NCBI GenBank assembly: GCA_949287425.1
Contig: CASEGJ010000003.1
Span: forward strand, 196,993 to 260,992
Source: an uncultured Caryophanales bacterium
GTDB lineage: Bacteria > Bacillota_I > Bacilli_A > RFN20 > CAG-288
DNA length: 64,000 nt
Direction: 5' to 3'
Under the pieces are notes generated by a model. The model saw only the letters and a program-made list of their open reading frames with translations, was not told where the DNA came from and made no database searches. Below, in pieces: positions 37,958 to 40,455 of this stretch (position 1 is the first letter of the stretch; the number at the start of each line of letters is the position of its first letter). A program made the position numbers and the translations under genes.

Positions 37958-39337
37958 ATGAATAAAGCGATTGATTTAGTTAATGGTAATATTAAAACAA
38001 ACATCGTAAAGTTTGCTATTCCAATTGCTTTATCTGGTATTTTGCAGCTTTTATTCTCTCAGGCCGATATTATTGTTTGTCGTTATTTTGGTTCTGAATT
38101 TTCTGTCCCTGCTATTTCAGGTACTAACTCTTTTGTAAACTTCATGTTGAATTTTGTCGTTGGTTTTTCAGTAGGCGCTAACGTATGCATTTCTAATGCG
38201 GTCGGTGCTAAAGATAAAGAAAAAGGCGAAAGAGTCATTGGCACTAGCATGATTTTTGGATTAGTTAGTTCTATTTTTATTGCGATTTTAAGCATATTAA
38301 TTACTAAGCCTGCATTAAAATTGTTAAATGCTGATGCGCAATATTTCGATTTATCTGTTCAATATTTACAGATTTATTTTGCCGGTGTTCCTTTTATTGT
38401 TTTATATGATTTTGCTTCAGCTTTGCTTAGAGGAATGGGAGATTCAAAAAGGCCATTTTACTTTTTAACAGCAGCTGGTGTTTTAAATGTTGGTTTAAAT
38501 TTGTTGTTTGTTATTGCTTTTAACATGGATGTTGCTGGTGTTGCTTGGGCGACAACTATTTCTCAAGGTGTCGCCGCTATTTTGTGTTGTATAGTTTTAA
38601 TAAAAAGTAATTTATTTGCTAATTTCCATTGGAAAAATTGTATTTTTAGAAAAGTTGAATTAGTAGAAGTTATTAAAGTTGGTGTTCCTGCTAGTATTCA
38701 ATCCTCTTTCTTTTCTATTTCTAATTTGATTATTCAATCTTCAATTAATGGTTTTGGTACTGATGTTACTACCGGTTCAGGTGCAGGAGCTTCTATAGAA
38801 TCTTATTTAAATACTGCTCAAAACGCTTTTGGACAAGCTTGTATTGCTTTCGTTGCCGCTAATTATGGTGCTCATAATATTAAAAATATTAAATCTTCGT
38901 TTAGATGGTGCTTAATTTACGCGGTTGGAATTTCTGCTATTTTATCTGTTGTATCTTGTTTACTACGTTATCCATTACTATCTTTATTTGCTAATACTCC
39001 AGAAAGTATGGAAGTAGGATCAATAAGAGTTTTAATTAACTGTGGTAGCTATGTTTTATATGCGTTAACTGATTGTCCACCTTATGCTGAAAGAGGTATG
39101 AAATATTCATTTATTCCTATGCTTATTTCTTTAATTGGTATTTGTGGTTCTCGTTTGTTGTTTATATTTACTTTATTCCAATTACCTCAGTTCCATACAC
39201 CAATGTGGTTATTCTTAACTTATCCAATTTCGTGGGTTTTAACAGGTGTCGCTCATTTAATAGCTTGGTATATAATATCTAAAAAGACTTTTGCTAAAAT
39301 TGAAGCCGATGCTAAATTAGCTGTTGAAAATAATTAA
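37958..39337 (+). CDS. MATE family efflux transporter
   Basis: 459-residue multi-pass membrane protein with two repeated six-helix halves. Typical features are the start DLVNGNIKTNIVKFAIPIALSG, SQADIIVCRYFG, SVGANVCISNAVGAKDKE, ASALLRGMGDSKRPF in the first half and VPASIQSSFFSISN and FVAANYGAHN in the second. It uses a Na+ or H+ gradient to expel cationic compounds; the substrate is unknown. Its own terminator is now displaced by the downstream IS insertion. Confidence 0.92.
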   Translation: MNKAIDLVNGNIKTNIVKFAIPIALSGILQLLFSQADIIVCRYFGSEFSVPAISGTNSFVNFMLNFVVGFSVGANVCISNAVGAKDKEKGERVIGTSMIFGLVSSIFIAILSILITKPALKLLNADAQYFDLSVQYLQIYFAGVPFIVLYDFASALLRGMGDSKRPFYFLTAAGVLNVGLNLLFVIAFNMDVAGVAWATTISQGVAAILCCIVLIKSNLFANFHWKNCIFRKVELVEVIKVGVPASIQSSFFSISNLIIQSSINGFGTDVTTGSGAGASIESYLNTAQNAFGQACIAFVAANYGAHNIKNIKSSFRWCLIYAVGISAILSVVSCLLRYPLLSLFANTPESMEVGSIRVLINCGSYVLYALTDCPPYAERGMKYSFIPMLISLIGICGSRLLFIFTLFQLPQFHTPMWLFLTYPISWVLTGVAHLIAWYIISKKTFAKIEADAKLAVENN

Positions 39338-39343
39338 AATTAA

Positions 39344-39351
39344 AAAATAAT
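39344..39351. repeat. 8-bp target-site duplication, left copy
   Basis: AAAATAAT directly outside the left inverted repeat, identical to 40375-40382. An 8-bp duplication is typical of IS1595-type elements. Confidence 0.85.
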
Positions 39352-39396
39352 TAGAAGTATTTACAAAATGGTTGCTGATTAGTAACTGAATTATTG

Positions 39397-39402
39397 TACA
39401 AT
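39397..39402 (+). promoter_or_regulatory. Possible -10 of the transposase transcript
   Basis: TACAAT, with TTGCTG (39372-39377, partly in the terminal repeat) 19 bp upstream as a weak -35. The predicted start falls at the first arm of the structured leader. Confidence 0.35.
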
Positions 39403-39407
39403 TAGAT

Positions 39408-39506
39408 TGCTAGTAAGTGAATGTAGGAAGCTACTAGGTTTGAACTTACTAGCATTTGTTCCTTTCTCTAGTGGCTTCCTACACTTAGAAAGGAACTTTT
39501 TATTTT
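39408..39506 (+). promoter_or_regulatory. Structured transposase leader with interlocking arms, terminator and hidden SD
   Basis: Three pairs of complementary arms interlock. Arms 1:3 are TGCTAGTAAGT (39408-39418) and ACTTACTAGCA (39444-39454). Arms 2:5 are 39422-39438 with 39467-39483 (core GTAGGAAGC/GCTTCCTAC, about 17 bp with two G-U). Arms 4:6 are GTTCCTTTCT (39458-39467) and AGAAAGGAAC (39487-39496). Pair 4:6 includes the SD AAAGGA and is followed by TTTTTATTTT, so it forms a terminator and masks the SD. Pair 2:5 excludes it. This is the arrangement of an attenuator or riboswitch; pairing was done by eye. Confidence 0.65.
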
Positions 39507-40338
39507 GCTTTCTAATTTAAAATGTTGCCCGTATTGTGGCTCTATATCTATTAAAAAGAATGGATATTATAAAAGCATCCAAAAATATCGTTGTCAAACA
39601 TATGGTTCTATTTTTAATGAACGTACTAATACTATATTTTCTAGTTCAAAATTGAATAATAAAACGATACACAACTTATTTCTTCTATTATTAGACGATT
39701 CTCGACTTAAAGTAATTCAAGACTTGTTGAATGTTTCCTCTAGAACAGCTTATTTTTGGAGAATGAAAATTTACAAATTGGCTGGCCAATTAATTTCTAA
39801 AGAAAAGTTACGATGATGTGTTTATATTGATGAATTATTAGTGCCTGTTAATAAAAAGTATATCGAGACAAAAAACAACAAATTGTTTAGAGGACAAAGT
39901 AGAAACCAAATAGTTATAGCTTGTGCGATTGATAAAGAAAATCGTAAATATGCTCAAATAGTAGGAAAAGGACATATTACATCAAAGGAATGTATTGAAT
40001 CATATGGAAAAGCAATTGAAAAAGGATCTTATATTATTCACGATGGTATATTTTCTCACGATGCATTAATTCGTTATTTAGAATCACAAGACGAGGTATG
40101 GAAATCAACAAGTAAAGAATCCAAAAAGCATTTACAACCAATCAATTCTTTCAGTGCAGAAATTAAAAGATGTTTAACTGTTCATATAGGACTTAGAAGC
40201 GAAAATTTACAAGATTATTTAAATTGGATAGTTTTTCGTTCTACTTTAAATAGTCAAAATATTGAAGAAAAATTAGAAGAATTGGAAGCATTATGCTTCA
40301 AATTTCACTATACATATCGTTTAAAAGATAGATATTAA
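39505..40338 (+). pseudogene. IS transposase interrupted by an in-frame TGA
   Basis: A single frame from TTG 39505 to 40338 holds a zinc ribbon (CPYCGS and a later CQTYG in which the last Cys is Tyr), a helix-turn-helix-like KVIQDLLNVSSRTAYFW, then TGA at 39814-39816, then the catalytic domain: YIDELLV (first Asp), YIIHDGIFSH (second Asp), and an IS1595-type C-terminus INSFSAEIKRC followed by LQDYLNWIVF. Without the TGA it would be 277 residues. The frame does not shift at the TGA, so one point mutation would restore it. TGG is used for Trp elsewhere in it. Confidence 0.82.
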
Positions 40339-40374
40339 GCTGATTATTTAGCAACCATTTTGTAAACACTTCTA

Positions 40375-40382
40375 AAAATAAT
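40375..40382. repeat. 8-bp target-site duplication, right copy
   Basis: AAAATAAT directly after the right terminal repeat, identical to 39344-39351. Confidence 0.85.
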
Positions 40383-40389
40383 TAAAATT

Positions 40390-40436
40390 AAAAGAGGGTA
40401 ATTAAATAAATTTTGAATTTAGTTAGCCCTCTTTTT
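40390..40436. terminator. Bidirectional terminator (originally of the MATE gene)
   Basis: AAAAGAGGG (40390-40398) pairs with CCCTCTTTT (40427-40435), with T-runs on both strands. It lies between the IS and the minus-strand lipoprotein genes. Before the insertion it would have stood about 40 bp from the MATE stop. Confidence 0.75.
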
Positions 40437-40455
40437 AATTTGGTAAGTCTGAAAT

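Follow-up and report, generated by a model that had tools for sequence, protein, structure and literature searches.

A probable three-helix RNA switch in the transposase leader of IS1595-like insertion sequences from Bacilli and Mycoplasmatota

What does a leader RNA do when six short arms, packed into about 90 nt ahead of a transposase gene, can form three interlocking helices? The question is raised by an insertion sequence in the window, the whole 64,000-nucleotide stretch of DNA from an uncultured Caryophanales bacterium that was analysed here. The element lies on the forward strand and has the following features.

39343..39352, with a second copy at 40374-40383, no strand: 10-bp direct repeat AAAAATAATT, a possible target-site duplication
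39353..40373, + strand: degenerate IS1595-like insertion sequence of 1021 bp, with terminal inverted repeats and a PF12762 domain
39353..39376, + strand: left terminal inverted repeat AGAAGTATTTACAAAATGGTTGCT, pairing with 40350-40373; similar ends are visible in relatives
39505..39816, + strand: N-terminal part of the transposase, with a TTG start and an in-frame TGA end at 39814-39816; intact in relatives
39817..40338, + strand: remainder of the transposase (ISXO2-like DDE domain), obtained by reading past the TGA
40350..40373, - strand: right terminal inverted repeat of 24 nt, pairing with 39353-39376

The first-pass annotation had called the element IS1595-like, and this is borne out by the terminal inverted repeats and by the match of the transposase to PF12762, the ISXO2-like DDE transposase domain (E 1.8e-6, above the cut-off). 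The same domain was matched in two relatives, L012 and L024, and IS1595 is the annotation of related plasmid copies. The 10-bp repeat flanks the element on both sides within AT-rich repeats, and its length is uncertain because it is itself AT-rich; target duplications are about 8 bp in the IS1595 family and 7-9 bp in IS1016-type elements (PMC12561309). The window element is the sole copy in its 1.34-Mb genome. Its transposase matches a profile built from eight intact transposases over the whole length (E 9e-108) with one internal TGA, which stands at a glycine position of the relatives. The zinc ribbon (about 39590-39605) reads CQTYG where relatives have CxxCG, one cysteine having apparently become tyrosine. 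Since the transposase is broken, the window copy is probably under no further selection; intact copies are present in other genomes.

A MatE gene, also on the forward strand, has its stop codon (39335-39337) 15 bp upstream of the element. A terminator-like hairpin downstream of the element (40384-40398 with 40427-40441) probably once served the MatE gene. As the element now lies between the two, its leader may end the MatE transcript. The leader itself is made up as follows.

39397..39402, + strand: -10 element TACAAT, a consensus match only; the predicted transcription start, at about 39409, is the 5' end of arm 1
39408..39418, + strand: arm 1 TGCTAGTAAGT, pairing with arm 3
39422..39438, + strand: arm 2, pairing with arm 5
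39444..39454, + strand: arm 3 ACTTACTAGCA, with 11 perfect pairs to arm 1
39458..39467, + strand: arm 4, the anti-Shine-Dalgarno, pairing with arm 6
39467..39483, + strand: arm 5, complementary to arm 2 and inside the loop of helix 4:6
39487..39496, + strand: arm 6, containing the Shine-Dalgarno AGGA (39491-39494), with 10 perfect pairs to arm 4
39497..39501, + strand: U-run (TTTTT) between the Shine-Dalgarno and the start codon, a possible terminator tail

The six arms that had been described at 39408-39506, with the pairings 1:3, 2:5 and 4:6, were all found in place. The core of 2:5 is 16 nt long (39422-39437 with 39468-39483) and 94% complementary with one G-U; a further G-U, 39438:39467, lengthens it to 17 pairs with two G-U, in agreement with the length and the two G-U pairs reported at first. 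The TTG start at 39505 follows 10 nt after the Shine-Dalgarno AGGA. The computed energy minimum of the full window leader is 1:3 together with 4:6, at -39.0 kcal/mol against -21.3 +/- 3.1 in shuffles (z -5.8). The leader truncated at 39486, ahead of arm 6, folds as 2:5 instead, at -29.0 kcal/mol (z -4.0).

Do these arms act as RNA? They are inverted repeats near the left end of the element, as would be expected of binding sites for transposition or of cruciforms, with the palindromes working at the level of DNA. The arms are, however, in register with the signals of a transcript. Where a relative has a clear -10, arm 1 opens with a GC 6-7 nt downstream of it, so that the predicted transcript begins with the 1:3 hairpin. 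At the other end the Shine-Dalgarno lies entirely within arm 6 in 32 of the 33 six-arm leaders; the covering of the transposase Shine-Dalgarno by 4:6, noted at first for the window, is thus nearly universal among these sequences. G-U pairs exceed A-C pairs on this strand when the two are scored alike (96 versus 52; binomial p 0.0004, a generous value for sequences that are related), as expected for RNA of this strand. Lastly, the arm sequences turn over between relatives, which a sequence-specific site would not tolerate. The palindrome reading was rejected on the -10 register, the Shine-Dalgarno register and the G-U excess, and is very improbable.

The same turnover explains why a DNA search of relatives with the leader matched almost nothing beyond the element ends. 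A transposase search found relatives in 33 of 196 related genomes, and upstream of these transposases the same arm order recurred in different letters. Within the window's order PF12762 was too insensitive, finding 9 of 279 genomes, and therefore our own transposase profile was used; its members occur in 43 of the 279 genomes of the order and in 53 of 395 genomes of the class. A search of plasmid DNA gave no match, and no relative was found among viral contigs. A leader of the six-arm kind, called type I below, is present on a plasmid from Tenericutes bacterium MO-XQ. Three copies (L173, L168, L164) are internally deleted, with the leader kept and the transposase reduced to its first and last portions.

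The alternating three-pair scheme was to be doubted, according to the first-pass annotation, if homologous leaders showed no compensatory changes or if the pairings were absent elsewhere. A MAFFT alignment of 13 leaders of related elements shows compensatory change in all three helices. Altogether 34 of 43 pairs are altered on both sides: 7 of 13 in 1:3, 19 of 21 in 2:5 and 8 of 9 in 4:6. The covariation score is 0.517 versus 0.241 in shuffles (0 of 500 reach it) and drops to at most 0.177 when the partners are slid by 1-3 columns, the structure line having been voted from the same sequences, which favours the structure somewhat. Four close relatives alone give 16 double-change pairs with 94% of cells paired, none of the 16 being in 4:6. 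As an independent check, a covariance model with 1:3 and 4:6 and without 2:5 was run; it found leaders in the order that had not been seen before, almost all of them with a long 2:5. In the L033 group, which belongs to another transposase clade, 2:5 has double changes in 11 of 22 pairs. The three pairings, their covariation and the masking of the Shine-Dalgarno can be read from the sequences themselves.

Use of the leader by unrelated genes was considered and rejected. Covariance-model matches in the order that have the full arms precede a transposase, its remnants or internally deleted copies, or lie at contig ends. A few covariance-model matches have no recognisable gene, and the weakest of the matches (E above 0.002) are partly noise.

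How widely the scheme is spread was measured with a six-arm detector, run alike on 96 distinct transposase upstream regions and on dinucleotide shuffles. It scored 36 of the 96 above the best of 768 shuffles (34.0; 99th percentile 29.5); the detector was devised after the first examples had been seen, the null uses the identical detector, and the 36 include a few variants of types II and III. The leader types track the transposase tree, with 7 changes in all versus 40 in shuffles. Type I leaders are found in several clades separated by long branches, and the six-arm scheme persists across transposase clades more than 1 change per site apart. In type II, 2:5 crosses a 4:6 with a 3' arm that stops close to the start codon; scores are 20.5-33 in 22 cases versus a maximum of 20.5 in 88 shuffles. 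Type III has 1:3 and a very long 2:5 (22 to over 30 bp), with 4:6 weak or absent. Plain leaders are found in a group to which ISSag10, ISCaje6 and copies from Enterococcus, Niallia and Ligilactobacillus belong.

Several details of individual leaders were also seen. In L111, L023, L067, L107 and other type II leaders 4:6 is TTGGCGG...CCGCCAA, its 3' arm reaching the ATG or coming close to it, and no Shine-Dalgarno is evident in between. A U-run often follows in the type III leaders (L104, L091, L133, L100, L145). One clade (L105, L094, L136, L095, L099, L181) has arms 2 and 5 nearly fixed, with 17 of 25 pairs invariant, in contrast to the fast turnover elsewhere; its leaders have a Shine-Dalgarno-like AAGGAAC in the 1:3 loop.

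What would the helices control? The first-pass annotation had 4:6 both blocking translation and terminating transcription, and the second part would apply to some of the family only. Of the 33 leaders, 23 have a U-run of at least four T downstream of arm 6, every one of them from the window's order, and class members outside that order are without it. Masking of the Shine-Dalgarno, and with it control of translation, would therefore be the common core and termination an addition. A generic terminator scan (loop 3-8) passed over 4:6, whose 19-nt loop is too large for it.

The description of the leader as riboswitch-like stands for the logic only, in that alternative helices that could control the Shine-Dalgarno or a terminator are present in these sequences. 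Rfam, searched with the window and 12 relatives, gave tRNAs and chance matches only. The search for a conserved aptamer core found none; only a short GCRAY-like junction recurs among the arms that turn over, and a ligand-sensing riboswitch was rejected for lack of such a core. A short TGTTTGGCGAY or GCRAY motif recurs in type I leaders across deeply split clades where 1:3 meets 4:6, with arm 3 ending in it (window 39452-39456).

The order in which the helices form was followed by computing minimum-energy folds of growing prefixes. In nearly all leaders these pass from 1:3 to 2:5 and then to the final state. Once arm 5 is out and before arm 6 is, 31 of the 33 leaders are predicted to fold as 2:5. 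In the complete leaders the median energy gap between the two folds is 5.0 kcal/mol, and the favoured state varies: it is 1:3 with 4:6 in 13 of the 33 leaders and 2:5 in about 20. The direct-path barrier between them has a median of about 35 kcal/mol, an estimate made without pseudoknotted intermediates that may be too high. With two computed states close in energy and a high barrier between them, folding kinetics should decide which state a given molecule takes up. Tuning of the two folds to equal energy was considered and dropped, since their closeness is not significant versus random pairing of elements (p 0.08).

A mechanism can be proposed from these computations. The transcript, predicted to start at arm 1, would first fold 1:3. 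As arm 5 emerges it would pair with arm 2 and displace 1:3, giving a state B in which the Shine-Dalgarno is free. When arm 6 emerges it could pair with arm 4, 1:3 would be restored and the Shine-Dalgarno buried (state A); in the window's own clade, state A would place a hairpin before the U-run. Within the cell the two states would exclude each other, and we infer the direction of the switch as a young message ON and a mature message OFF. Translation would then come from only some transcripts, or only from young ones, so the transposase would be kept low, and a purpose suggests itself: the switch probably limits how often the element jumps. We judge it likely that a bistable leader RNA controls the transposase encoded behind it through this co-transcriptional strand-exchange relay, from 1:3 to 2:5 to 4:6.

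A static fold would give a simpler account. The 1:3 and 4:6 hairpins would persist, arms 2 and 5 would kiss loop to loop and lock the leader OFF, and with no switching the transposase would simply be low. It is consistent with the computed minimum of the window leader and with the position of arm 2 in the 1:3 loop and arm 5 in the 4:6 loop, which holds for all six-arm leaders. The geometry argues otherwise. Helix 2:5 is 14-28 bp long, and over 30 bp in some elements, but the joints to the flanking stems are a few nt in most leaders and therefore too short to span a full helix. In the roughly 20 leaders where 2:5 is the more stable, it would undo both hairpins. A static fold is thus unlikely; a partial loop-loop contact between arms 2 and 5 may form while 1:3 and 4:6 stay paired.

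The strand-exchange relay has also to be weighed against two other roles for the leader. It could be a shield, as in IS10 and IS50, that stops or silences messages from neighbouring genes while the alternative fold passes the element's own message. With the MatE gene so close upstream on the same strand, readthrough would enter the window element, and in L041 (2000-2060) a terminator-like hairpin with a T-run follows the left end and precedes the promoter of the element itself. Against a shield stands the predicted own start at arm 1, by which all six arms would be present in own and foreign messages alike, and the leader by itself could not distinguish them; we think this role improbable.

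The other role is copy-number sensing in trans. Terminated leader RNA would accumulate with the number of copies and pair through arms 2 and 5 with the nascent leaders of sister copies. These arms are complementary to those of identical copies and differ among elements, so such pairing would be element-specific, and the U-run in 23 of the 33 leaders could release a short RNA. But leaders without a U-run retain 2:5 equally well, and the one antisense promoter matched in the window does not exceed the expectation from shuffles. Sensing in trans is less probable still than a shield or a static fold.

Control of a transposase by leader RNA is already known; the three-helix switch is apparently new. 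In IS10 and IS50 RNA structure over the ribosome site limits translation of the transposase, the masking stem being present only in outside transcripts. There and in IS200 one masking structure is found, often with an antisense RNA or Hfq. The window family is alike in that leader RNA structure hides the ribosome site of the transposase, but it has three covarying helices and two alternative folds. Unlike in IS10 and IS50, the masking arm is not upstream of the element's own predicted start, and the predicted own transcript contains all the arms.

The pT181 repC-type attenuators and terminator/antiterminator riboswitches also rely on helices that exclude one another, and choose between them as the RNA is transcribed. 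Here no antisense RNA or aptamer was identified, the Shine-Dalgarno is the constant output and the U-run is found only in part of the family. In hok-type mRNAs kinetically trapped alternative folds time translation; the switch described here is contained within a leader of about 90 nt, without a long-range 5'-3' fold-back. ISSag10 and ISCaje6 have transposases of the same IS1595 family, but their leaders are plain and short with an ordinary Shine-Dalgarno, and no interlocking arms were found in them.

The closest published cases, IS200 and ISPpu9, are single masking structures. In IS200, RNA structure masking the ribosome site limits transposase translation (Ellis et al. 2015, as cited in PMC8450116). 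In ISPpu9 a long structured 5'-UTR buries the ribosome-binding site, weakening mutations raised a reporter 26-fold and opening is attributed to the antisense RNA Asr9 (PMC8450116); the parts of that account drawn on here describe no interlocking helices in the 5'-UTR such as those of the window family. A 'Transposase-resistance' motif without an Rfam accession is among those listed by Weinberg et al. 2010 (PMC2864571). In the open-licence papers searched, no description of a leader switch in IS1595 elements was found.

Chances are about even that these leaders make up a widespread and undescribed class of kinetic RNA switch in IS1595-like elements of Bacilli and Mycoplasmatota, one in which a three-helix handover gives a timed or stochastic pulse of transposase and in which evolution has replaced all the arms and kept the logic. 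Masking of a transposase start by a single hairpin is familiar; a covarying three-helix relay without an evident ligand, protein or antisense RNA is not, so far as we have searched. The leaders form a natural set in which dozens of unrelated sequences meet the same folding problem, and would be useful for ideas on co-transcriptional folding and bistability. They also suggest how the poorly studied Bacilli and Mycoplasmatota restrain their insertion sequences.
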